Source: Desulfuromusa sp. (GTDB lineage: Bacteria > Desulfobacterota > Desulfuromonadia > Desulfuromonadales > Geopsychrobacteraceae). From it: a stretch of 64,000 bases of DNA. Positions within the stretch are counted from its first letter, which is position 1. Each line of letters opens with the position of its first letter. Made by a program: the position numbers and the translations under genes. The DNA lies in contig JADGDX010000001.1 in assembly GCA_016744675.1 (NCBI GenBank), positions 62,001 through 126,000 on the forward strand, in the 5' to 3' direction. Positions 9,983 through 63,995 of this stretch are shown in pieces. Under the pieces are notes generated by a model. It was given only the letters and a program-made list of their open reading frames with translations. It ran no database searches and was not told the DNA's origin.

Positions 9983-10171
9983 TGAGGTAGAGGCGGTGTT
10001 TTATTGTCAGAGGAATTGATATCGATATTAAGATTATAGTGGGTTATGTAGAAAACAAGGCCCGCCTTCAATTTTATGTTTTCTTGTCCGTATGATATGT
10101 CAGCTTCCTTCATTGTACTGCTTCTTGGATTTGGTTATACTCCACGCACATCAGATACTTATGGAGGACAT

Positions 10172-52179: not shown

Positions 52180-53610
52180 CTACTCTTTAATAGGATGCCA
52201 CTTTTCTGCTCTAATTACGGCATTTTTAAATTTTTTAAGAAAATGTTGACGATCTTTTTTTGGCAGGTAACGCTTAAGGGAACTGTTCATGGAGTATTGC
52301 ACATTCTGGTTGGACGCGGCCAATCGTGCTGTTCCAAGGGCTGTTAATTCTGGAGATGATTGCACTGTGATTTGCCGATTTAGGACATCAGCTAAGAATT
52401 GACATAAGTATGGATTAGCTGACAACCCTCCATCTATGGAAATTTCGTTTTTAACAGATGTGAATTTGTTCATCGCAGTGATCACTTCAGTTGCTCGAAA
52501 CACAATCCCTTCTAAGATCGATTGCATTAAGTCAATGGGTTGTGTGTCTAGTGTTAAGCCAATCCATAGCCCTCCTGCCGTTTTATCCCAGTATGGACAA
52601 CCTAGGCCGGTTAGGGCTGGGACAAAAACTAAGCCTCTTTCTATTGCGCTTTTTTTTCCAAAATGTTGGATTTGATCAAAAGATTTGAATAAACCCAAAG
52701 ATTTTGCCCAATTAATTGCTGATCCAGCAGAAAAAACGCCACCATCCAGAGCGTATACAGGTTTTTGTTCCTTTAATTGCCATGCTACTGTTGGCAGTAG
52801 CTCTTGTCGTGATGGTTGTTGTGGGGCGGTCCCTGTGACCACTAACGCGAATGCGCCCGTACCAAAAGTAACCTTGATGTCACCGGCGTTTATACATCCA
52901 TGTCCATATAGCGCAGCCTGTTGATCAACGACACTTGCTGTGACAGGGATACGCCGATTGTTTGACAGAATTGAACCAAGGTCACCTGTTGTTGATACAA
53001 TTTCTGGTAATGTGCTTATCGGAACTTCAAAAAGATTGCAAAGCTCCTCATCCCATTGACCAGTCTGTAGATTCATTAATGATGTTCTTGATGCAGTACT
53101 GATATCTGTCACAAATCGGCCAGTCAGTCGATCTAGAAAAAAAGCATCAGTTGTGCCCATTCTTAACTTTCCGTTCAAGAGGAGATCTTTTGCTTTAGGG
53201 GTGTTTTTTAGAATCCATGATAGCTTTGAAGCCGAAAAATATGAATCTAATGGCAACCCAGCTTTTTGTAGTACTAGATCTTGTTTGTTATCGGATTTGA
53301 GATTTTCTATATAGGAATGGGTTCGGTTGTCCTGCCAGACAATAATAGGCGATATTGCTTGTTTTGAATCTGCGTCCCAAGCCAGGCAGCTTTCTCCTTG
53401 ATTATCTATGCCAATGGTTGAAACATCATTGCAGCAATCAATACACAGTTGGATATTTCGAATTATTTCTTCTGCATCATGTTCGACCCACCCTGGTGAG
53501 GGATAAAATTGTTGGTGCTCAATGGTTTTAATTATTGTTCCCGCGCCAGAGGCATCAAGCCTCAGGGCACGTGTGCTGGTAGTACTTTGATCAATAGCGA
53601 GTATTGTCAT
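52180..53610 (-). CDS. FGGY-family kinase, glycerol-kinase-like
   Basis: Carbohydrate kinase of the FGGY family (476 residues). The ATP-site opening ILAIDQSTTSTRALRLD and the phosphate loop VTFGTGAFALV are intact. The closest remembered pattern is glycerol kinase: PGWVEHDAEEI, NQGESCLAWD, IVWQDNRTHSYIE, GTTDAFFLDRLTGRFVTDISTASRTSLMNL and GLGCPYWDKTAGGLWIGLTLDTQ. However GlpK motifs are altered (NQRET is NQGES), so the substrate may differ. Divergent from the TRAP transporter with a 485-base gap. Its immediate upstream shows a CTGG/CCAG hairpin next to the ATG but no ANTAR-type element. Confidence 0.8.
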   Translation of the reverse strand: MTILAIDQSTTSTRALRLDASGAGTIIKTIEHQQFYPSPGWVEHDAEEIIRNIQLCIDCCNDVSTIGIDNQGESCLAWDADSKQAISPIIVWQDNRTHSYIENLKSDNKQDLVLQKAGLPLDSYFSASKLSWILKNTPKAKDLLLNGKLRMGTTDAFFLDRLTGRFVTDISTASRTSLMNLQTGQWDEELCNLFEVPISTLPEIVSTTGDLGSILSNNRRIPVTASVVDQQAALYGHGCINAGDIKVTFGTGAFALVVTGTAPQQPSRQELLPTVAWQLKEQKPVYALDGGVFSAGSAINWAKSLGLFKSFDQIQHFGKKSAIERGLVFVPALTGLGCPYWDKTAGGLWIGLTLDTQPIDLMQSILEGIVFRATEVITAMNKFTSVKNEISIDGGLSANPYLCQFLADVLNRQITVQSSPELTALGTARLAASNQNVQYSMNSSLKRYLPKKDRQHFLKKFKNAVIRAEKWHPIKE

Positions 53611-53908: not shown

Positions 53909-53938
53909 TTGCAATACAAAAACAAACTATGTTATATA
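53909..53938 (+). promoter_or_regulatory. Probable promoter of the TRAP operon
   Basis: TTGCAA (53909-53914) followed after 17-18 bases by TTATAT/TATATA (53932-53938). Transcription would begin near 53945, just upstream of the leader hairpin. Confidence 0.45.
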
Positions 53939-53961
53939 GTTTTTTAAATGTAGATATATTT

Positions 53962-54032
53962 TCACCCAATGGCGGGTGATGCAGCGATGATGCTTGTACG
54001 GAGAATTCACAGATCTCTTGCAAGCATTTTTT
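53962..54032 (+). promoter_or_regulatory. ANTAR-target leader upstream of the TRAP transporter
   Basis: Hairpin P1 is a perfect 6-bp stem TCACCC (53962-53967) and GGGTGA (53974-53979) around hexaloop AATGGC, with A at loop position 1 and G at position 4. A second hairpin (53980-53998, TGCAGC/GCT-T-GTA, loop GATGAT) overlaps the left arm of an intrinsic terminator: ATGCTTG (53990-53996) with CAAGCAT (54021-54027) and six T. P2 and the terminator cannot form together. This is the layout of EutV antitermination leaders. P2 is weaker, as its loop starts with G rather than A. Confidence 0.7.
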
Positions 54033-54095: not shown

Positions 54096-54608
54096 ATGCC
54101 CAAATTTATAATTCTTTATGTCAAGTATGTTGACGCCATTTCGATAAAAATTGGTCGGGCGGTCATGTACCTAATATTTGTCATGATTGCTGTATTGCTT
54201 CTCGGCGCGCTGACTCGGAATGTCTTGCATATGCCCCTATCTTGGACTGTTGAGATGGCTCAATTTATTATTACGGCCTATTATATTGCTGGTGGTGCCT
54301 ATTCAATGATTTTAAGAGAGCATGTGCGAATGGATTTGCTCTATGAACGTTTCTCTGAAAAAACTAGAGCACGAGTCGATGTTGTTACCACCTTTTTTCT
54401 GATTTTCTATCTTGTTACCCTCCTGATTGGGTCGATTTCCAGCACCATGTACGCGATTGAGTATGGCCAGCGAAATTTTTCTCAATGGAATCCCTCAATG
54501 ATACCGATCAAAATCATTATGGTTGCAGGTATTGTTTTAATGATTCTTGAATCTGTCTCTGTTTTCTTCAAGGATCTGGCAACAGCTAAAGGAATCAAAA
54601 TCACATGA
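54096..54608 (+). CDS. dctQ: TRAP transporter small permease (DctQ)
   Basis: Small membrane subunit of a tripartite ATP-independent periplasmic transporter, 170 residues with four hydrophobic helices. It carries WTVEMAQFIITAYYIAGGAYSMILREHVRMDLLYERFS, typical of DctQ (the E-x-Q/A-x-F and HVRxD patterns). AGGAGG precedes the ATG. It overlaps dctM by four bases (ATGA). The leader indicates regulation with the eut genes. Confidence 0.93.
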   Translation: MPKFIILYVKYVDAISIKIGRAVMYLIFVMIAVLLLGALTRNVLHMPLSWTVEMAQFIITAYYIAGGAYSMILREHVRMDLLYERFSEKTRARVDVVTTFFLIFYLVTLLIGSISSTMYAIEYGQRNFSQWNPSMIPIKIIMVAGIVLMILESVSVFFKDLATAKGIKIT

Positions 54609-55927
54609 GTTATGAATTAATCGCCCTGACGATGTTTGGGGGAATGCTGCTTTTGATGCTGACAGGGCAGCGTGTCTTTGCTGCAATTGGTTTTGTCTCC
54701 GCTGCTGCCTCATTGTTGCTCTATGGTAATGGCGCTATTGAGATGCCATTTAATGCAGCATTTAAGCTGTTTAATTGGTACCCCATGTTGACCTTGCCGT
54801 TATTTGTTTATATGGGATATGTCCTTTCCGAATCAGGTATAGCCGATGATCTCTACACGATGTTTCATGTTTGGTTTGGCAGAATAAACGGTGGGTTAGC
54901 TGTTGGCACAATTGGTTTGATGGTCGTCATCTCAGCCATGAACGGGCTCAGCGTTGCCGGAATGGCTATTGGGGCAACAATTGCGCTTCCAGAAATGCTA
55001 CGGCGTAATTATGACAAAGTGATGATTACAGGGGTTGTTCAAGCTGGTAGTTCTTTGGGTATTCTGGTGCCTCCCAGCGTAGTTCTGGTTCTTTACGGAA
55101 TGATTGCTCGTCAGCCAGTAGGTCGGCTTTGGTTGGCTGGAGTCATTCCAGGGTTAATGATGGCCGCCTTATTTGCCATCTATATCGTCGTTAGATGTAA
55201 ACTCCAACCTCACCTTGCTCCTACGGTGAGTGAAGAAGAGCTTGATATTCCTTTAAAGGAGAAACTGAAATTATTAAAGGCCGGCATCATTCCATTCTTG
55301 ATTTTCTTTTTCATGACTGGTTTGTTTTTGATGGGAATTACTAGCTTGGTGGAAAGCTCGGCAGTTGGTGCAACTGCAGCTACGATTGCGGCTATTGCTA
55401 AGGGCGCTTTTACCCGTAAAGTCATTGAAGAGTCGGTCAGGAAAACCCTTGGTATCTCTTGCATGTTTATGTGGGTTATTCTAGCAGCCCTTTCTTTTGG
55501 GGCCGTTTTCGACGGGATTGGAGCTGTTAAAGCTATTGAGGCATTGTTTATTACTAAATGGGATTTGAGCCCCTGGCAAGTGTTGGTAATGATGCAGTTG
55601 TCGTACATTGTGATGGGAATGTTTTTAGACGATACCGCGATGCTGGTAATTGTTGCACCGCTTTATGTCCCGCTTGTTATTGCTTTAGGGTTCAACCCAA
55701 TTTGGTATGGGGTTTTGTATACAATCACTTGCCAGATTGCTTATATGACCCCTCCCTTTGGTTACAATCTTTTTTTAATGCGTGCCATGGCTCCACCAGA
55801 GATCACTTTACCTGATATATATCGTTCTATTATCCCGTTTGTGTTGATTATGGTCTTTGCCTTGGTATTAATCATGGTTTTCCCACAGATAACTTTGTGG
55901 CTCCCTGATTACATTTATTCAAAATAA
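54605..55927 (+). CDS. dctM: TRAP transporter large permease (DctM)
   Basis: Large membrane subunit, 440 residues with about 12 hydrophobic segments, driving uptake with the sodium or proton gradient. It has LTGQRVFAAIGFVSA, LPLFVYMGYVLSESGIADDLY, GLSVAGMAIGATIALPEMLRRNYDK, QAGSSLGILVPPSVVLVLYGMI and FLDDTAMLVIVAPLYVPLV, characteristic of DctM. Overlaps dctQ by four bases and precedes dctP. Confidence 0.95.
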   Translation: MSYELIALTMFGGMLLLMLTGQRVFAAIGFVSAAASLLLYGNGAIEMPFNAAFKLFNWYPMLTLPLFVYMGYVLSESGIADDLYTMFHVWFGRINGGLAVGTIGLMVVISAMNGLSVAGMAIGATIALPEMLRRNYDKVMITGVVQAGSSLGILVPPSVVLVLYGMIARQPVGRLWLAGVIPGLMMAALFAIYIVVRCKLQPHLAPTVSEEELDIPLKEKLKLLKAGIIPFLIFFFMTGLFLMGITSLVESSAVGATAATIAAIAKGAFTRKVIEESVRKTLGISCMFMWVILAALSFGAVFDGIGAVKAIEALFITKWDLSPWQVLVMMQLSYIVMGMFLDDTAMLVIVAPLYVPLVIALGFNPIWYGVLYTITCQIAYMTPPFGYNLFLMRAMAPPEITLPDIYRSIIPFVLIMVFALVLIMVFPQITLWLPDYIYSK

Positions 55928-55996
55928 CCATAGAACTTTGTAGTGAATTGTTTGTGTCCGGCACTTATCTCTAACCTTAAGCAGAGGAGTCAATCG

Positions 55997-57100
55997 ATGA
56001 AGGATGAAAAAATCGTAACTAAGCCCCAGCCTCAGGAACAGAAAAATGGCCGCCGAGATTTCATTAAGAAGGCAGGTATTGCAACCACAGGAGCTGTCGC
56101 CGCCTCGACAGTTTTTAGTGCTCCCTATGTATATTCAGCTTCAAATCCAATTAAATGGCGGCTGCAGACTTATTCTGGAGCAGCATTAGGGGCTCATGTT
56201 ATTCAACCGCAAATTGAAGCATTTAACCGTGCTGCACATGGGCAGATGGAGATTGAACTTTATTTTGCTGATCAACTTGTTGCTACGAGTGAGCTTTTCC
56301 GTGCAATGCAGAATGGGATGATTGATGCCGTGCAGAGTGATGATGCAACCATGGCCTCCCCAGTAGACATCAATGTTTTTGGCGGGTACTTCCCGTTCGC
56401 AACGCGTTACAGTCTTGATGTGCCTGTTTTATTCAAATACTACGGCTTAAACGAGATCTGGCAGGAGGCTTATGACGAAGTCAGAAACGTTGAGTGGCTT
56501 GGCGCTGGTGCTTGGGATCCTTTGCATATTTTCAGTAAGAAACCAATTAACAGCCTTGCTGATATGAAAGGCAAGCGGGTCTTTGGCGTACCGACTGCTG
56601 GTAAATTTCTGTCTCGCTATGGTCTGGTTCCTGTTACCTTGCCTTGGGATGATATTGAAGTTGCTATCCAAACTGGTGAGCTTGATGGTGTCGCCTGGTG
56701 TGGATTTACCGAAGCCTATGAGGTTGGTTGGGCTGACGTTTGTAATTATGCTCTGTTGAACAACGTGACCGGCGCGTGGTTCGGTTCCTATTTTGCCAAC
56801 AGTAAGAGCTGGAAAAAAGTTCCACCTCATCTACAAGAATTGTTCAAGATATCAATGGATAGCTCGCACTACTACCGTCAGGTCTGGTACTGGGGCGGTG
56901 AAGCTAAACTACGGGTTGGCGGAAAGAAGATGGAATTAACCACGATTCCACCGAATGAATGGGATCAGGTTGTAAAAGATTCAGAAAGTTTCTGGGATGA
57001 TATGTCTTCTATTAGCCCTCGTGCTGCAAAGGTTGTGAAAATCTTTAAAGAGTATTCAAAGGTTATGCACAAAGCTGGTGTTCCGTATCGTTATAGTTAA
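55997..57100 (+). CDS. dctP: TRAP transporter substrate-binding protein (DctP), Tat-exported
   Basis: Periplasmic solute receptor of about 367 residues. It has a twin-arginine signal RRDFIKKAG at residues 19-27 followed by a hydrophobic stretch and APYVYSA, so it should leave by the Tat route. The mature DctP fold shows WRLQTYSGAALGAHVIQPQIEAFNRAA, a conserved-arginine-type segment MKGKRVFGVPTAG and LDGVAWCGFTEAYEVGW. The binding region is rich in Trp/Tyr, but the ligand cannot be read from sequence. Start at ATG 55997 follows GAGGAG. Operon and leader suggest a ligand linked to ethanolamine use. Confidence 0.92.
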   Translation: MKDEKIVTKPQPQEQKNGRRDFIKKAGIATTGAVAASTVFSAPYVYSASNPIKWRLQTYSGAALGAHVIQPQIEAFNRAAHGQMEIELYFADQLVATSELFRAMQNGMIDAVQSDDATMASPVDINVFGGYFPFATRYSLDVPVLFKYYGLNEIWQEAYDEVRNVEWLGAGAWDPLHIFSKKPINSLADMKGKRVFGVPTAGKFLSRYGLVPVTLPWDDIEVAIQTGELDGVAWCGFTEAYEVGWADVCNYALLNNVTGAWFGSYFANSKSWKKVPPHLQELFKISMDSSHYYRQVWYWGGEAKLRVGGKKMELTTIPPNEWDQVVKDSESFWDDMSSISPRAAKVVKIFKEYSKVMHKAGVPYRYS

Positions 57101-57108
57101 TGCTACAT

Positions 57109-57147
57109 ATTCTTGCCCCTGTCTTTTATGCAGGGGCGAGAATTTTT
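57109..57147 (+). terminator. Intrinsic terminator after dctP
   Basis: A stem of about 13 bp (ATTCTTGCCCCTG with CAGGGGCGAGAAT, one mismatch) with a nine-base loop and TTTTT. It ends the TRAP message before the eut leader. Confidence 0.88.
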
Positions 57148-57236: not shown

Positions 57237-57311
57237 TGGTTGCACAACGGCGTGTGATCCAAAGCGGAGAATGCTTGCAGAGAAGAAATAAATTCTTGCA
57301 GGCATTTTTTT
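57237..57311 (+). promoter_or_regulatory. ANTAR-target leader upstream of eutS
   Basis: P1 pairs TGGTTGCAC (57237-57245) with GTGTGATCCA (57252-57261, one bulge) around hexaloop AACGGC (A1, G4). A second small hairpin AAGC/GCTT (57262-57276) overlaps the left arm of a strong terminator (about 57270-57306), which has stem AATGCTTGCAG...GCAGGCATT followed by seven T. EutV binding to P1/P2 would free the transcript. P2 has a seven-base loop here, so it is imperfect. Confidence 0.78.
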
Positions 57312-57329
57312 GTGGAGCTAAGAAAAACT

Positions 57330-57677
57330 GTGTCCGAAGATAAGCAACGAATGATTCAAGAGTATGTGCCCGGCAAACAGCTGACATTGGCACATTTAAT
57401 TGCGAATCCACAAAAATCTATTTGTCAGAGCCTTGGCCTTGATGAAGAGGTTGCGGGTGCAATTGGTATATTAACAATTACACCTGGTGAGGCAGCAATT
57501 ATTGCCGCTGATGTTGCGACTAAAGCTGCGGATGTTGAGATTGGTTTTTTGGATAGATTCGGTGGAGCAGTTGTCATTGTTGGCGACGTTGCCAGTGTTG
57601 AATCTTCGATTCTTAGTGTTCTTGATGTTTTTGAGACTGTTTTACATTTTGCTATAACGGAAATTACTCGTTCATAA
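57330..57677 (+). CDS. eutS: Ethanolamine utilisation microcompartment shell protein EutS
   Basis: BMC-domain shell protein (circularly permuted hexamer type). From GTG 57330 it reads [27 protein letters not shown], aligning with the EutS start, and continues [48 protein letters not shown]. It is 115 residues, close to 111 in E. coli. A GTG at 57312 in the same frame directly follows the terminator T-tract and is unlikely. First gene of the eut operon, preceded by its regulated leader, followed after ten bases by eutP. Confidence 0.96.
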
Positions 57678-57687
57678 CGAGGTCCTT

Positions 57688-58110
57688 ATGAAAAAAATTC
57701 TCCTTGTCGGAAAAACAGGAAGTGGTAAAACATCTCTAATTCAGAGTCTTCAAGATCATAAGCTTATCTATAAAAAAACTCAGACCATTACTTTTAGCGG
57801 GATGTTTATCGATTCCCCTGGTGAGTTTTTAGAGAATCGACGTCTTTATCCTGCCCTGATGACCTCATCAGTTGGATGTCACACTGTTGTTTTGGTTCAA
57901 GATGCGTCGGTGATAAACAGTGTTTTTCCTCCTAATTTCTCAACTATGTTTAAAAAGAAGATTATTGGCATAGTCACCAAAGTGGATAAAAAATCAAGCA
58001 ATCCTGAAAGAGCTGAAAAGTTTCTTAGACGAGCTGGGGCTGAGGAGATCATCAGGACGAGTGCTTTAGACAAAACTGGACTCGAATTGCTGAGATTGAG
58101 CCTTACTTAG
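57688..58110 (+). CDS. eutP: EutP/PduV family GTPase-like protein
   Basis: Small P-loop protein of 140 residues associated with microcompartments; in E. coli EutP has been linked to acetate kinase activity. The P-loop GKTGSGKTSL is at 8-17, an IDSPGEFLENRRLYPAL segment is the switch/G3-like motif, and TKVDK is G4-like. No transmembrane segment is seen. It lies between eutS and eutV as in Firmicute eut operons. Confidence 0.93.
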   Translation: MKKILLVGKTGSGKTSLIQSLQDHKLIYKKTQTITFSGMFIDSPGEFLENRRLYPALMTSSVGCHTVVLVQDASVINSVFPPNFSTMFKKKIIGIVTKVDKKSSNPERAEKFLRRAGAEEIIRTSALDKTGLELLRLSLT

Positions 58111-58119
58111 GATATATTG

Positions 58120-58692
58120 ATGTCATATAAGATTGTTATAGCTGATGATGAACCCATTACTCGCCTTAATATGTATGAGATTTTGGTTGGTGCTGGTTAC
58201 GACGTTGTTGGTGAGGCTGGAGATGGATTTGATGCACTGGATCTCTGTAGGGAGCACCATCCCGATCTAGCTTTACTGGACATCAAGATGCCTCTTATCG
58301 ATGGATTGAAAGCTGCTCAACTTATTAAAGAAGAAAAGCTGGCAGGAAGCATTTTGTTGCTAACTGCATATAGTGGCAAAGAGTTCGTTGACCAGGCTAA
58401 GGATGCCGGCGTTGAGGGATATTTGGTCAAGCCGGTATCAGAGGATTCTCTCCTTCCGATGGTAGAAGTTGCAATTGCTAAAGGGATGGAAATGGATCGA
58501 ATGAGAGAGGATATTCGCAGAGCTCAGGATGATTTAGAAGGCAGAAAACTGATTGAAAGAGCCAAAGGTATTCTGATGGCTCAGGAAAAACTCTCTGAAG
58601 ATGATGCCTATAAAAAAATTCGCAGAATAAGTATGGATAAGGGTCGACCTATGAAAGATATTGCTAAAGCTATTCTGTTGAATAGTGTTTGA
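58120..58692 (+). CDS. eutV: EutV response regulator with ANTAR output
   Basis: Two-component regulator that binds RNA, not DNA. The receiver domain has E11/D9/D10 pocket, phospho-acceptor D54 (LALLDIKMP) and K104 (YLVKP). The ANTAR domain (about 130-187) is LIERAKGILMAQEKLSEDDAYKKIRRISMDKGRPMKDIAKAIL, with the alanine/aromatic pattern typical of ANTAR. It acts as an antiterminator at dual hairpins such as those at 57237 and 60187. Start is ATG 58120, the preceding TTG at 58117 being unlikely. Overlap and spacing tie it to eutW. Confidence 0.97.
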   Translation: MSYKIVIADDEPITRLNMYEILVGAGYDVVGEAGDGFDALDLCREHHPDLALLDIKMPLIDGLKAAQLIKEEKLAGSILLLTAYSGKEFVDQAKDAGVEGYLVKPVSEDSLLPMVEVAIAKGMEMDRMREDIRRAQDDLEGRKLIERAKGILMAQEKLSEDDAYKKIRRISMDKGRPMKDIAKAILLNSV

Positions 58693-58699
58693 GGAACCT

Positions 58700-60133
58700 A
58701 TGCTTGTCGCCCTTTGCCAGCAGCATTCTGATCTTACTGAGACCGATATACAGCAAATAAAAAAAAATGCTGAATGTCTGGAGAGTGTCGCTGAATTGGT
58801 GGGGGCTGACATTTTTATAGATTGTTGCACTAGGGATCCGGATATAGCAGTAGTGGTATCTCAGGCACGGCCATCTTCGGTAAAGTCTCTTTATTCTGGC
58901 TCAGTTGTTGGAAAATTTGCTCATCGAAGTAAAGAGCCAGCAGTTCTTAGGACTTTAGAAGTCGGTATGCCAACAATGGACATGAGTGGTGTGACGCAGG
59001 AAGATAAAAATGTAAGGCAAAGCGTGTCGCCGATCAAGAATTCTTCTGGAGTTGTTATTGGTGCACTGATTGCCGAAAAAGATGTCACTGAAAGGGTTAG
59101 AGCAGAAAAAAAATTGTCGGTACTGACCCAAACCACTGAACAACTAATCGAAAGAAGGGCGATTTCTGGTACGGGAGACAATAGCCTTCCTTATCATGTG
59201 ACCGATGGGATTCTGATATTTAGCCGCTCAGGTATTTGTACTTACGCCAACCCGGTGGCTGAAAAAGTTTATCGTGATCTGGGATACCTTGAACGACTTG
59301 AAGGCCTTAGCTTTTCCAACATAACCTTTCATGGGGTTGAATTTGAAGATATTCTCTCTAAAAAACAAGTTACTCTCAATGATCTCGAAGTAGGTAACTA
59401 CATTTTTCATATCAAGTATACATATGTGAAAAATAAAAATGAGAATTTTGCTGGGGTTGTCATGTTGATCAATGATGTGACTGATGTGAAAAATAAAGAA
59501 AAAGAGCTGGTTCTTAAAACAGTTGCAATTAGTGAAATCCATCACCGGGTCAAAAACAACTTACAGACGATAGCAAGTCTTTTAAAGCTTCAATGTCGCA
59601 GAGTTGACGATGTGGCAGCGAAAGTCGCTTTTAATGAAAGTATCAGTCAGGTTCTGAGTATCGCTGCAACCCATGAAATATTGGCAGAAGATTGTAAAGA
59701 TGATGTCGATATTATGACGATGCTGCAGAAGATCAAGGCTAACACAGCTCAACATGGACTTCTGAAAAGCAAAGGAATCACCATTAATCTTAAAGGCGAT
59801 ACCTTTTTGTGTGATTCGGATACGGCAACGTCAATCGCGCTTGTTGTTAATGAAGTAACGCAGAACAGTTTGAAATATGCTTTTATTGGCAGGGAGTCAG
59901 GGGTAATTGATATAGAAATTTGTAAAGGGGCTATGTATTCAAATATTTCTATCATCGATGATGGGATTGGTTTTGACTTTGATAAAGACTCTTCAGAAAA
60001 ACTCGGCTTGCTTATTGTACGACGGATTGTTACGGAAAAGCTTAAAGGCAATTTGTCGACTGAATCGAATCAGAGTGGAACCAAAGTTTTATTTGATTTT
60101 CCGTTGAGTCAACTGAATCCTGAACCGATGTAA
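58700..60133 (+). CDS. eutW: EutW sensor histidine kinase (HisKA_2)
   Basis: Histidine kinase expected to phosphorylate EutV in response to ethanolamine. An N-terminal histidine-kinase-N region (about 1-135) is followed by a PAS-like segment (DGILIFSRSGICTYANPVAE), then HisKA_2 with the phospho-histidine in AISEIHHRVKNNLQTIASLLKLQ, then an HATPase domain with VVNEVTQNSLKYAF and IIDDGIGFDFD. No transmembrane segment is evident, so it senses in the cytosol. The start is ATG 58700 with GAGGAA; the frame is open from GTG 58685. It starts eight bases after eutV. Confidence 0.93.
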   Translation: MLVALCQQHSDLTETDIQQIKKNAECLESVAELVGADIFIDCCTRDPDIAVVVSQARPSSVKSLYSGSVVGKFAHRSKEPAVLRTLEVGMPTMDMSGVTQEDKNVRQSVSPIKNSSGVVIGALIAEKDVTERVRAEKKLSVLTQTTEQLIERRAISGTGDNSLPYHVTDGILIFSRSGICTYANPVAEKVYRDLGYLERLEGLSFSNITFHGVEFEDILSKKQVTLNDLEVGNYIFHIKYTYVKNKNENFAGVVMLINDVTDVKNKEKELVLKTVAISEIHHRVKNNLQTIASLLKLQCRRVDDVAAKVAFNESISQVLSIAATHEILAEDCKDDVDIMTMLQKIKANTAQHGLLKSKGITINLKGDTFLCDSDTATSIALVVNEVTQNSLKYAFIGRESGVIDIEICKGAMYSNISIIDDGIGFDFDKDSSEKLGLLIVRRIVTEKLKGNLSTESNQSGTKVLFDFPLSQLNPEPM

Positions 60134-60186: not shown

Positions 60187-60264
60187 TCGTACGCAACGGC
60201 GTGTACGAGTAAGGCATTGTGGCCTGAATTTGCAATCATGTAGTTTGCGGTTTCAGGCTTTTTT
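60187..60264 (+). promoter_or_regulatory. ANTAR-target leader upstream of eutA
   Basis: This is the clearest of the three leaders. P1 is an 8-bp stem TCGTACGC (60187-60194) and GTGTACGA (60201-60208) with hexaloop AACGGC (A1, G4). P2 is AGGC/GCCT (60212-60225) with hexaloop ATTGTG, again A1 and G4. The right arm of P2 is also the left arm of a terminator, GCCTGAA (60222-60228) with TTCAGGC (60252-60258), then six T. The two structures exclude each other, the known EutV antitermination design. Confidence 0.88.
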
Positions 60265-60279
60265 CATGATAGGGCTGTG

Positions 60280-61713
60280 GTGAAAGAACAAATTCTTAGC
60301 GTTGGAATAGACATTGGAACAACGACAACCCAGTTAGTGTTCAGTCAACTAACATTGGAGAATACTGCGTCCTTGATTTCTGTCCCACGCATAGAAATTA
60401 TTGACAAAGAGGTGATTTTTCGCAGCGACATTCATTTTACTCCTTTGCGATCAAAGCACGAAATCGATGATAACGAAATAAGGGATCTTATTCTAAAAGA
60501 TTACAGTTACGCTGGGATTACGCCAGATCAAGTGCAGACTGGAGCAGCTATTATCACTGGTGAGGCAGCTAAGAAAAAGAATGCTGAATCAGTATTGGTA
60601 GCTTTGAGTGGCTTGGCTGGAGAGTTTGTCGTTGCGACTGCAGGACCAACTTTAGAAGGGATTATTGCTGGCAAGGGAGCAGGAGCCTGTCAGGAATCAA
60701 AAAAACGTGGAGCGACAATTGTTAATCTGGATATTGGAGGGGGTACCACTAACATTGCTGTTTTTAGGAATGGTGAATTGATTGATACTGCTTGCTTAGA
60801 TATCGGCGGGCGCTTGATTCGTTTTAACAATAATCAGGGTGGAGTCAGTTATATTGCAGACAAGCTTCGTAATTTGACTCGATCCATGAACTTGACAGTC
60901 ACAGAGAATCAAACTTTGGGACAAGGTTTGATTGAGAAAGTCGCTAACCGAATGGCAAGTATTCTTGAAGAAGTTCTTGGGCTTTCAGAGGTCTCTTCGG
61001 AATTGGATATGATGCTTACAGATCATGACCTAAAACGTGATTACCATATTGATTATGTTTCGTTTTCTGGAGGTGTGGCTGACTGTATAGAAAATACTAA
61101 AAATGGTGAAGACTTTCGTTTTGGAGATATTGGAGTCGCTCTTGGACGGGCAATAGCCCTTTCAAAAATCCCTCAGCAGCTAAAGGTTCTTCAGGCTGTT
61201 GAGACAATACGAGCAACAGTAGTCGGGGCAGGGTCGCATACAACGGGCATTAGCGGTAGCACTATTTCGGTTTCTCCCGGAGTTTTGCCGATGAAGAATA
61301 TTCCCGTTCTGAAACTATCAATGGAGGATGAATCTTTGCCATTAGTGCAATGGGGTGAAGCTATCCTTCGCAAAGTTCAATGGTTTAATCTCGACGGGGA
61401 AAAGCAGAACCTAGCACTTGCATTTTGTGGGCAAGCTAATCTTGGGTTTAACGAAGTAAAGATTCTGGCGCAGGAAATCATTAAAGGGATGCAGGGAGTT
61501 CTATGTAAAACCTGTCCGCTGGTTGTGGTGATTGAAATAGATTTGGCAAAGGTGATGGGACAAACCCTACGGAGTCAGTTAGGGGATAAAAAGGATGTTA
61601 TCTGTATAGATACAATTAAAGTTGAAAACGGAGACTATATCGATATTGGTCGAGAACTGGTTGATGGAAATGTTGTTCCTATCATTGTTAAAACGCTGGT
61701 ACTCAACTATTAA
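60280..61713 (+). CDS. eutA: Ethanolamine ammonia-lyase reactivating factor EutA
   Basis: ATP-dependent chaperone that removes damaged cobalamin from EutBC. It is an actin/Hsp70-like ATPase of 478 residues with GIDIGTTTTQLVFSQL at the N terminus and IVNLDIGGGTTNIAVF and VSFSGGVADCIEN later. Two adjacent GTG codons (60277, 60280) could start it; AGGG at 60271 favours 60280. Controlled by its own regulated leader. It precedes eutB by 26 bases. Confidence 0.95.
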   Translation: MKEQILSVGIDIGTTTTQLVFSQLTLENTASLISVPRIEIIDKEVIFRSDIHFTPLRSKHEIDDNEIRDLILKDYSYAGITPDQVQTGAAIITGEAAKKKNAESVLVALSGLAGEFVVATAGPTLEGIIAGKGAGACQESKKRGATIVNLDIGGGTTNIAVFRNGELIDTACLDIGGRLIRFNNNQGGVSYIADKLRNLTRSMNLTVTENQTLGQGLIEKVANRMASILEEVLGLSEVSSELDMMLTDHDLKRDYHIDYVSFSGGVADCIENTKNGEDFRFGDIGVALGRAIALSKIPQQLKVLQAVETIRATVVGAGSHTTGISGSTISVSPGVLPMKNIPVLKLSMEDESLPLVQWGEAILRKVQWFNLDGEKQNLALAFCGQANLGFNEVKILAQEIIKGMQGVLCKTCPLVVVIEIDLAKVMGQTLRSQLGDKKDVICIDTIKVENGDYIDIGRELVDGNVVPIIVKTLVLNY

Positions 61714-61739: not shown

Positions 61740-63107
61740 ATGAAACTGAAAACGGTACTGTCTGGGGTCGTGTACGAATTTAAAGATCTCAAAGAAGTTT
61801 TGGCAAAGGCCAATGAAGAAAAGTCTGGTGATCGTCTGGCCGGTCTTGCTGCCGCGACGATTGCTGAGATGGTGGCAGCGAAAGAGGTTCTTGCTGATTT
61901 GACTTTGGCTGATTTGAGAAATAATCCAACGGTCCCTTACGAAGATGACGAGGTGACTCGTTTGGATCAGGACGCAGTCAATGAAAGAATCTATGCCGAG
62001 ATTAAATCATTTACCGTTGCCGGTTTTCGGGAGTGGTTACTTAGCCACCAAACCTGTGGTGATGACATTATTAGGATTTCGCGCGGATTGACTTCAGAGA
62101 TGGTTGCGTCAGTTACTAAACTGATGACTAATCTTGATCTGATTTATGCCGCGAGTAAAATTAATATTCTTGCTCATTGTAATACGACTATTGGTGATCC
62201 AGGAGTCCTTGCATTTCGTTTGCAGCCCAATCATACCACCGATGATCTTGATGGTATTCGGATATCAACTTTTGAAGGATTAAGTTATGGGTCGGGTGAT
62301 GCTTTAATTGGACTAAATCCGGTCAATGATACCGTGGAATCTCTTTCTAATATTTTGCATATGTTTCAAGAAATTAAGGAAACTTACGAGATACCTACGC
62401 AAAACTGTGTGTTGGGTCATGTTACAACTCAGATGGAGGCAGTTAAAAAAGGGGCTCCTGCCGATATGATATTCCAGAGTATCGCTGGAAGTGAGAAAGG
62501 CAATACGGCCTTTGGTCTTAATGCCGCGATGCTCGCTGAAGCGAGAGACCTGATGCTTAAAGAAGGGACAGCGACCGGTCCGAATGTGATGTACTTTGAA
62601 ACCGGTCAGGGGGCCGAACTCTCATCAGATGCTCACCATGGTGTTGATCAAGTGACTATGGAAGCGCGCTGCTACGGATTTGCCAAACATTTTGATCCTT
62701 TTCTTGTCAATACTGTGGTTGGATTTATTGGACCCGAGTATTTGTATGATAGTAAACAGGTAATCCGTGCTGGACTGGAAGATTTGTTTATGGGGAAATT
62801 GACCGGAATTTCAATGGGAGTCGATGCCTGCTACACCAATCATATGAAGGCTGATCAGAATGATATCGAAAACTTAGCGGTTCTACTTGGTACAGCTGGG
62901 TGCAACTACCTGATAACTGTGCCTCAGGGAGACGATATCATGTTGAATTATCAGTCTCTTGGCTATCATGAAGCGGCGGCTTTAAGATCACTTCTCAAAC
63001 AAAGACCGATTCCGGCATTTGAGTGTTGGCTTGAAAAGATGGGGATCTACGACAATGGGCAACTCAGTCAAATAGCGGGTGATGCATCTCGGTTTTTTAA
63101 AGGTTAA
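61740..63107 (+). CDS. eutB: Ethanolamine ammonia-lyase large subunit
   Basis: Catalytic subunit of the adenosylcobalamin-dependent lyase that splits ethanolamine into acetaldehyde and ammonia inside the microcompartment. Length is 455 residues (about 453 in E. coli). Family features are MKLKTVLSGVVYEFKDLKEVLAKANEEKSGDRLAGLAA, LNPVNDTVESLSNILHMF, and MYFETGQGAELSSDAHHGVDQ with the active-site glutamate. AGGTAAGG precedes the ATG. eutC follows immediately. Confidence 0.98.
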   Translation: MKLKTVLSGVVYEFKDLKEVLAKANEEKSGDRLAGLAAATIAEMVAAKEVLADLTLADLRNNPTVPYEDDEVTRLDQDAVNERIYAEIKSFTVAGFREWLLSHQTCGDDIIRISRGLTSEMVASVTKLMTNLDLIYAASKINILAHCNTTIGDPGVLAFRLQPNHTTDDLDGIRISTFEGLSYGSGDALIGLNPVNDTVESLSNILHMFQEIKETYEIPTQNCVLGHVTTQMEAVKKGAPADMIFQSIAGSEKGNTAFGLNAAMLAEARDLMLKEGTATGPNVMYFETGQGAELSSDAHHGVDQVTMEARCYGFAKHFDPFLVNTVVGFIGPEYLYDSKQVIRAGLEDLFMGKLTGISMGVDACYTNHMKADQNDIENLAVLLGTAGCNYLITVPQGDDIMLNYQSLGYHEAAALRSLLKQRPIPAFECWLEKMGIYDNGQLSQIAGDASRFFKG

Positions 63108-63122
63108 TTGGTGGGAAAGGTC

Positions 63123-63995
63123 ATGGTTGATATGGAAAATAAAATAAAGCAACTCATTGAGGATGTTTTGAGGGAAATGGGTCAGCAAAAGAACAATTCT
63201 CTGGAGAGGGTATCTCCATCTTTATCTTCTGAGGAGCCTCTGACCGATCTCACAGCTGAAAACCTGAGGGAACAACTGTTAGTTCCTTCTCCAGCCAATC
63301 GGGACGCTTATCTCAAGTTTAAGGGATCAACTGCATCACGCATCGGAATTTGGCATGCGGGTTCCAGATATCTTACAAAATCTCTACTTCGGTTTAGAGC
63401 TGATCATGCGATTGCACAAGATGCGGTCTTTAATAACGTGTCTGAGAAATTCATCAAGGAATGGGGGATTCTGGAGGTTAAGACAAAGTGCACAGATAAA
63501 GATCAGTTTTTGACCCGTCCTGACTTAGGCAGGCAGTTGGATGTTGAAAATGCTGATCTGCTGAAAAAAAATTGTTTAAGGAACGCCAGAGTACAGATTT
63601 ATGTTGCTGATGGGCTGAGCTCTACCGCAGTAGAAAAGAATGCCAAGGACACCTACTTGGCGCTGGCGCAAGGTCTCGAAGGTCATGGTATTAAAGTAGG
63701 GACACCATTTTTTCTCCGGTATGCTCGAGTTCCAGCGATGGATGCTGTCTCTGAAATATTGCAGCCTGAAGTCATAGTCGTTTTGATTGGTGAACGACCC
63801 GGGCTAGCAACAGCTGAGAGTATGAGTTGCTATATGGTATATAATGCATCAGTCGGTATGCCAGAAGCGAGGAGGACTGTTGTTTCTAATATTCATCAGG
63901 GTGGAGTTCCTGGAGTAGAGGCCGGAGCTCATATCGCTGATGTTGTGAAGCAAATGCTTGATCAGAAAGCTAGTGGATTGGAACTGAAGAAATGA
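63123..63995 (+). CDS. eutC: Ethanolamine ammonia-lyase small subunit
   Basis: Light chain of ethanolamine ammonia-lyase that helps bind adenosylcobalamin. The N-terminal amphipathic segment ENKIKQLIEDVLREMG resembles the microcompartment-targeting tail of EutC. The core has RIGIWHAGSRYLTKSLLRFRADHAIAQDAVF, VYVADGLSST-like VQIYVADGLSSTAVE, and LIGERPGLATAESMSCYM. The start is at ATG 63123 or ATG 63132; GGGA and AAAGG precede both, so either is possible. Its stop codon overlaps the start of the next gene (ATGATGGCG). Confidence 0.95.
   Translation: MVDMENKIKQLIEDVLREMGQQKNNSLERVSPSLSSEEPLTDLTAENLREQLLVPSPANRDAYLKFKGSTASRIGIWHAGSRYLTKSLLRFRADHAIAQDAVFNNVSEKFIKEWGILEVKTKCTDKDQFLTRPDLGRQLDVENADLLKKNCLRNARVQIYVADGLSSTAVEKNAKDTYLALAQGLEGHGIKVGTPFFLRYARVPAMDAVSEILQPEVIVVLIGERPGLATAESMSCYMVYNASVGMPEARRTVVSNIHQGGVPGVEAGAHIADVVKQMLDQKASGLELKK

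Follow-up and report, generated by a model that had tools for sequence, protein, structure and literature searches.

The question raised by this locus is whether a three-gene TRAP transporter, encoded upstream of a set of ethanolamine utilization (eut) genes, is controlled by the same type of RNA switch as these genes and, if so, whether ethanolamine is what it carries. The window (i.e., the whole 64,000-nucleotide stretch of Desulfuromusa sp. DNA analyzed) derives from a 2.9 Mb genome, the closest relative of which is Desulfuromusa kysingii, and its genes of interest form three groups, dctQ-dctM-dctP, eutS-eutP-eutV-eutW and eutA-eutB-eutC (Table 1), each headed by a leader built to one plan, in which hairpin P1 is followed by a smaller hairpin, P2, and by an intrinsic terminator sharing the 3' arm of P2. 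Because a terminator also follows dctP, the dctQMP genes seem to constitute a transcription unit of their own, which would therefore need its own control element. The reading favored here, with a probability of roughly 0.86 and on the strength of sequence comparisons, is that the element ahead of dctQ is an ANTAR-type antitermination leader that belongs to the EutVW regulon and controls a TRAP transporter importing ethanolamine.

Table 1. Features of the TRAP-eut locus (window coordinates)
Feature	Position	Strand	Basis or remark
Putative dctQMP promoter (TTGCAA, 17 nt, TTATAT)	53909..53937	+	Weak
TRAP leader P1 hairpin, loop AAUGGC (A1, G4)	53962..53979	+	Folding, held-out covariance match, eight-genome conservation
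TRAP leader P2 hairpin, loop GAUGAU (G1, G4)	53983..53994	+	Aligned leaders (seven distinct)
Intrinsic terminator, mutually exclusive with P2	53989..54032	+	RNAfold
dctQ, TRAP small permease subunit	54096..54608	+	PF04290
dctM, TRAP large permease subunit	54605..55927	+	PF06808
dctP, solute-binding protein, ethanolamine-type (EtoX/Csal_0678 group)	55943..57100	+	PF03480; 4uab E 1.8e-139; 63%/319 aa
Terminator 3' of dctP, between dctQMP and eutS	57109..57147	+	14-bp stem, then T run
eutS leader: P1 loop AACGGC, P2 with 7-nt loop GGAGAAU, terminator	57238..57311	+	Scan, covariance match, folding
eutS	57312..57677	+	NF012012 over cut-off
eutP	57688..58110	+	TIGR02528 over cut-off
eutV, response regulator with ANTAR domain	58117..58692	+	PF00072, PF03861
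eutW, sensor histidine kinase, PdtaS-type GAF	58685..60133	+	PF12282, PF07568, PF02518
eutA leader: P1 loop AACGGC, P2 AGGC-AUUGUG-GCCU, terminator	60187..60264	+	Scan, covariance match, folding
eutA	60277..61713	+	NF007992 over cut-off
eutB	61740..63107	+	NF011649, PF06751
eutC, putative	63108..63995	+	ORF directly 3' of eutB; relatives keep same order; name from position

The preliminary description of this region had proposed a perfect 6-bp hairpin with the loop AAUGGC (A1, G4) ahead of dctQ, followed by a second hairpin overlapping an intrinsic terminator, and both were confirmed. The P1 arms UCACCC (53962-53967) and GGGUGA (53974-53979) enclose their loop at 53968-53973, and P2 consists of a 3-bp stem, AGC (53983-53985) with GCU (53992-53994), closing the loop at 53986-53991. 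The terminator stem (53989-54028, with the subsequent U tract ending at 54032) contains the 3' arm of P2. In 21 of 22 leaders, the window TRAP leader among them, the minimum free energy fold (RNAfold) has this P2 arm paired to the 3' arm of the terminator. The folding z-score of the 91-nt TRAP leader is -3.75, and chance is excluded as an explanation of this fold. The TRAP terminator went undetected in a simple terminator scan, the rules of which its loop and stem probably violate, and a consensus promoter scan made no call at the putative dctQMP promoter; a TTGYAN-N15..17-TTATNN block is found 24-33 nt 5' of the P1 loop in other TRAP leaders and 30 nt 5' of it in the window.

The eutS and eutA leaders share this design, as had also been proposed, and the P1 loops of both read AACGGC in the window. 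The P2 loops differ, and of the three leaders only that of eutA shows A1/G4 in both hexaloops. Position 1 of the P2 loop in the window TRAP leader is G, not A, as it also is in genome G057, and the P2 loop of the eutS leaders is seven bases long, unlike the canonical hexaloop, reading NNNGAAU in six genomes (in the window, in the region 57262-57276) and AAUGAGU in G005. The distance from loop 1 to loop 2 is 12 nt in all aligned dctQ leaders and 13-15 nt in the eutS/eutA leaders. In the window TRAP leader, 3 nt separate the minimal P1 and P2 stems, compared with 5-12 in Enterococcus faecalis, where the stem limits are counted differently and where a 3-base linker failed (PMC3369931).

A relaxed dual-hairpin-plus-terminator scan of both window strands returned the three leaders and, at 10021, one unrelated site; applied to ten Markov copies, it gave 0-3 matches per copy, five in total. 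When A1/G4 in both loops plus a terminator were demanded, only the eutA leader and the site at 10021 were left: the TRAP leader fails this strict scan because of its G-first P2 loop, and the eutS leader because its P2 loop is both G-first and seven bases long. With Rfam, no match was obtained at the TRAP, eutS or eutA leader at either gathering or permissive thresholds. A covariance model built solely from the eutA leaders of seven genomes (R1) found only eutA well and missed the TRAP leader at 53962. Another model (R3), trained on the eutS and eutA leaders of the relatives and the window but on no TRAP leader, and with P1 as its only structure, placed the window TRAP leader (53960-53999) third after eutS and eutA at 20.7 bits (E 4.9e-4, all covariance E-values being rough, as the models were shortly calibrated), the next non-leader site reaching 13.2 bits. 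Matches had been anticipated at 53962, 57237 and 60187, and they were obtained at 53960, 57238 and 60187. In other genomes, R3 scored the TRAP leaders of five at 14.6-27.3 bits, that of the permuted operon of G005 at 19.9 and that of G058 at only 11.8. A model including the TRAP leaders (R2) was searched in 16 genomes for further sites; its credible matches in the window genome were the three leaders only, and the five genus members without eut genes yielded no credible leader (best E 0.016, likewise rough). Two other R2 matches in the window genome, C166:61118 and C74:987, were set aside as chance, as they lie inside coding sequence.

The sequence upstream of dctQ is readable in eight genomes spanning two families (the window genome, G049, G053, G054, G057, G058, G059 and G014), and the leader is present in all of them, contributing seven distinct alignment rows (that of G053 is identical to that of G058). 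The P1 loops (AAUGGC, AACGGC, AACGGU, AACGGA and AACGAC) retain A1 and G4 in 8/8 genomes, and the P2 loop is GAUGAU in the window and G057 and AAUGAU, AAUGGU, AAUGGC or AAAGGU elsewhere, position 1 being A in G014, G049, G053, G054, G058 and G059. Across the seven rows, 98.4% of the pair cells are kept, with one compensatory change from U-A to C-G; this covariation is suggestive only, the shuffle test having little power with seven sequences (the score is reached in 51 of 500 shuffles). In G005, which represents another family, the TRAP genes are arranged as dctP-dctQ-dctM, lie 3' of the eut operon and are only 52-73% identical, and dctP is preceded by a leader of like design (P1 GUCGCUC-AACGGC-GGGUGAC, P2 AAGC-GUUGAUA-GCUU, terminator) that was absent from the R2 training set and scored 34.9 bits with R2.

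When the 600 nt upstream of dctQ were inspected in 66 TRAP loci, the motif was found only in the three that adjoin eutV and was absent from all 63 without an adjacent eutV; the leader of locus L005 lies ~340 nt upstream, beyond the 200-nt upstream cut. This dctQ occurs in nine of the 277 genomes of the class, and eut genes of this type are present in every one of the nine (as judged, for G054, from the eutSPVW run on contig L004); no such dctQ was found in the five genus members lacking EutB. When EutV was searched for in eight distant genomes that have the TRAP transporter, with no positive control included, none was found. The proposed EutV-regulon membership is thereby supported, as far as sequence comparisons go, by the held-out R3 match, the conservation in eight genomes, the recurrence on a permuted TRAP operon and the 63 negative loci.

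Several side observations concern gene content. Genome G060, besides its usual dctP-eutS-eutP-eutV contig, has a second dctP copy (L121 1-3152, L188), after which come a divergent eutA (26% identity) and the beginning of a eutB that is likewise divergent (31%). In class members such as G112-G122, G191-G199 and G258-G259, the EutB matches lie in open frames of ~680-808 aa, which, by analogy with the fused EutB-EutC described in Pelobacter carbinolicus (PMC3543383), are probably fused EutB-EutC. In the window itself, translation of dctP may really begin at 55997, with an in-frame ATG.

The distribution of the leader also bears on the idea, judged very improbable, that it answers to the other ANTAR regulator of the genome, so that nitrogen status would control uptake. 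Ethanolamine is a nitrogen source, and a second ANTAR protein is indeed encoded at C74:7918 beside PII, AmtB and NifH genes, but the TRAP leader falls into the same class as the eutS and eutA leaders by R3, is missing from the 63 TRAP loci without eutV, and belongs to a transporter operon gained and lost together with the eut operon in the class, and the contig carrying the second ANTAR gene has a single model match, which lies inside coding sequence. The neighborhood of this second response regulator (L114 653-7591, G000:C74; glnK, amtB, draG-like and nifH genes) resembles the nitrogenase ANTAR regulon of Pelobacter carbinolicus (PMC3369931).

Assignment to EutV brings up the question of recognition. 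The EutV/EutW leaders of E. faecalis, found at eutP, eutG, eutS, eutA and ef0120 (Ramesh et al. 2012, PMC3369931), resemble those of the window in having two small hairpins, a P1 hexaloop with A1/G4, a P2 overlapping the terminator and EutV-EutW encoded in the locus; they differ in that the window leader has a G-first P2 loop and controls a TRAP transporter, that the eutS P2 loops have seven bases, that no cobalamin riboswitch was found at the window eut operon (there are three elsewhere in the genome) and that the host is a member of Desulfuromonadia, not of Firmicutes. An EutX-like arrangement, i.e., a cobalamin riboswitch with ANTAR hairpins, was also considered and rejected, as no R2 match lies near any of the three genomic cobalamin riboswitches. 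In E. faecalis, induction and binding both fall when position 1 of either loop is mutated (PMC3369931), which makes the G1 of the window P2 the chief doubt about the proposed mechanism. As G1 is also seen in P2 of one eutA leader (G049) and of the eutS leaders of the window, G049, G057, G058 and G014, EutV of this lineage may accept either purine at this position, and, given the G1 of the window P2 loop and the seven-base eutS P2 loops, leader recognition may differ from that of E. faecalis EutV.

In the dctQ and eutS leaders, the arms of the terminator are the same (GCUUG...GCAGGCAUUUUUUU), which suggests, as a matter of sequence likeness, that the former arose by copying the latter. Such a copy could by now be mainly a constitutive attenuator, bound poorly by EutV owing to the G1 of P2, and the shared arms, the presence of that G1 in the window and G057, and the importance of A1 in E. 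faecalis would all fit. This is, however, quite improbable, as the P1 A1/G4, the P2 G4 and the overlap of P2 with the terminator are kept in 8/8 genomes, G005 retains the leader on a permuted TRAP operon, and the G1 shared with eutS (five genomes) and eutA (G049) leaders makes the regulon seem tolerant. A more tentative proposal, to which somewhat less than even odds are given, is that within Desulfuromonadia the EutV code has loosened (G-first P2, seven-base loops) and the same transporter family has been recruited by separate events in two gene orders.

As to what the transporter carries, the best solved relative of DctP is 4uab (Csal_0678), one of the ethanolamine-binding proteins to which DctP is orthologous, which aligns at 468 bits, the next solved structure reaching 62 bits. 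The crystal structure of Csal_0678 contains ethanolamine, and the usual carboxylate-binding arginine is absent from that protein (PMC4646407); the corresponding column in the DctP alignment is not fixed by sequence alignment alone. The ligand is held by Glu220 in Csal_0678 (PMC12410723), the probable equivalent of which is Glu257 of the window dctP ORF (the residue numbering offset being inferred), and TE, with this likely ligand glutamate, is present in 52/52 relatives whose segment was matched. The related EtoX binds ethanolamine with a Kd of 7.9 uM, the phospho- and glycerol-type analogues tested not being bound (PMC10132767). The five other DctP proteins of the window genome are all distant. 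EutH gave no match in any of 11 genomes carrying this operon, nor did any Eat permease match in such genomes, several of which are incomplete, exceed the model cut-off; the suggestion that the TRAP transporter stands in place of EutH fits the EutH result. EutH and Eat, which share with it the role of ethanolamine uptake for EutBC, belong to families unrelated to TRAP.

It is rather improbable that the substrate is instead some other amino alcohol, or a linked compound: the crystal structure comes from a relative only, and adjoining glpK-like genes point to glycerol compounds, but the 63% identity of DctP to an ethanolamine-bound protein, the retention of the likely ligand glutamate and the selectivity of EtoX argue for ethanolamine, which, judging by these sequence relationships, the window TRAP transporter very probably imports. 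The glpK-like FGGY kinase in question (52180-53610, minus strand) is divergent from the TRAP genes. In D. kysingii (L003 2646-7537), such a kinase is accompanied by glpA-like, glpB-like and DeoR/GlpR-like genes that are absent beside the window kinase, and a similar kinase is found in 14/40 long TRAP loci without eut. The kinase-TRAP neighborhood suggests that glycerol and ethanolamine are used together, both being derived from glycerophospho- or phosphatidylethanolamine.

The control envisaged would work as follows. When ethanolamine is lacking, transcription from the dctQ promoter would stop at the terminator (53989-54032), whereas in its presence EutW would phosphorylate EutV, the ANTAR dimer of which, by analogy with E. 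faecalis (PMC3369931), would hold and stabilize P1 and P2, use up part of the terminator 5' arm and prevent termination, so that dctQMP would be transcribed along with the eutS- and eutA-led operons; DctP would then capture ethanolamine, and DctQM would import it for EutBC. Because the TRAP and eut genes carry the same two-hairpin RNA switch, ethanolamine uptake and use are probably switched on by a single RNA-binding regulator, EutV.

Taken separately, ANTAR leaders and an ethanolamine TRAP transporter (EtoX) are already known. ANTAR leaders precede many nitrogen genes, including those for ammonium, urea and nitrate transporters (Ramesh et al., PMC3369931), and EutV regulons, treated as a Firmicutes matter in the preliminary description, are distributed more widely, Fusobacterium also having EutVW (PMC11796344). 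Its statement that no TRAP transporter is known to be under ANTAR control stands for the open-licence papers searched (the supplementary tables of Ramesh et al. aside), none of which was found to place a TRAP transporter under such control, although the ethanolamine TRAP transporter itself is not new. Csal_0678/EtoVWX (Chromohalobacter, Phaeobacter; PDB 4uab; PMC10132767) is likewise a three-gene TRAP transporter, with a dctP 63% identical and ethanolamine as the ligand predicted here, but it feeds the gamma-glutamyl-ethanolamide pathway, whereas the window transporter, headed by an ANTAR leader, lies with EutBC and microcompartment genes. What is new is the combination of ANTAR antitermination with an ethanolamine TRAP transporter, i.e., a new target and a new lineage, which joins two known parts left unlinked in the literature searched. 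It makes a precise prediction of how anaerobic Desulfuromonadia would, lacking EutH, take up ethanolamine for a microcompartment pathway, the transporter answering to the same RNA switch that controls the enzymes, and the variant P2 loops would offer a natural test of the bases that ANTAR proteins need.
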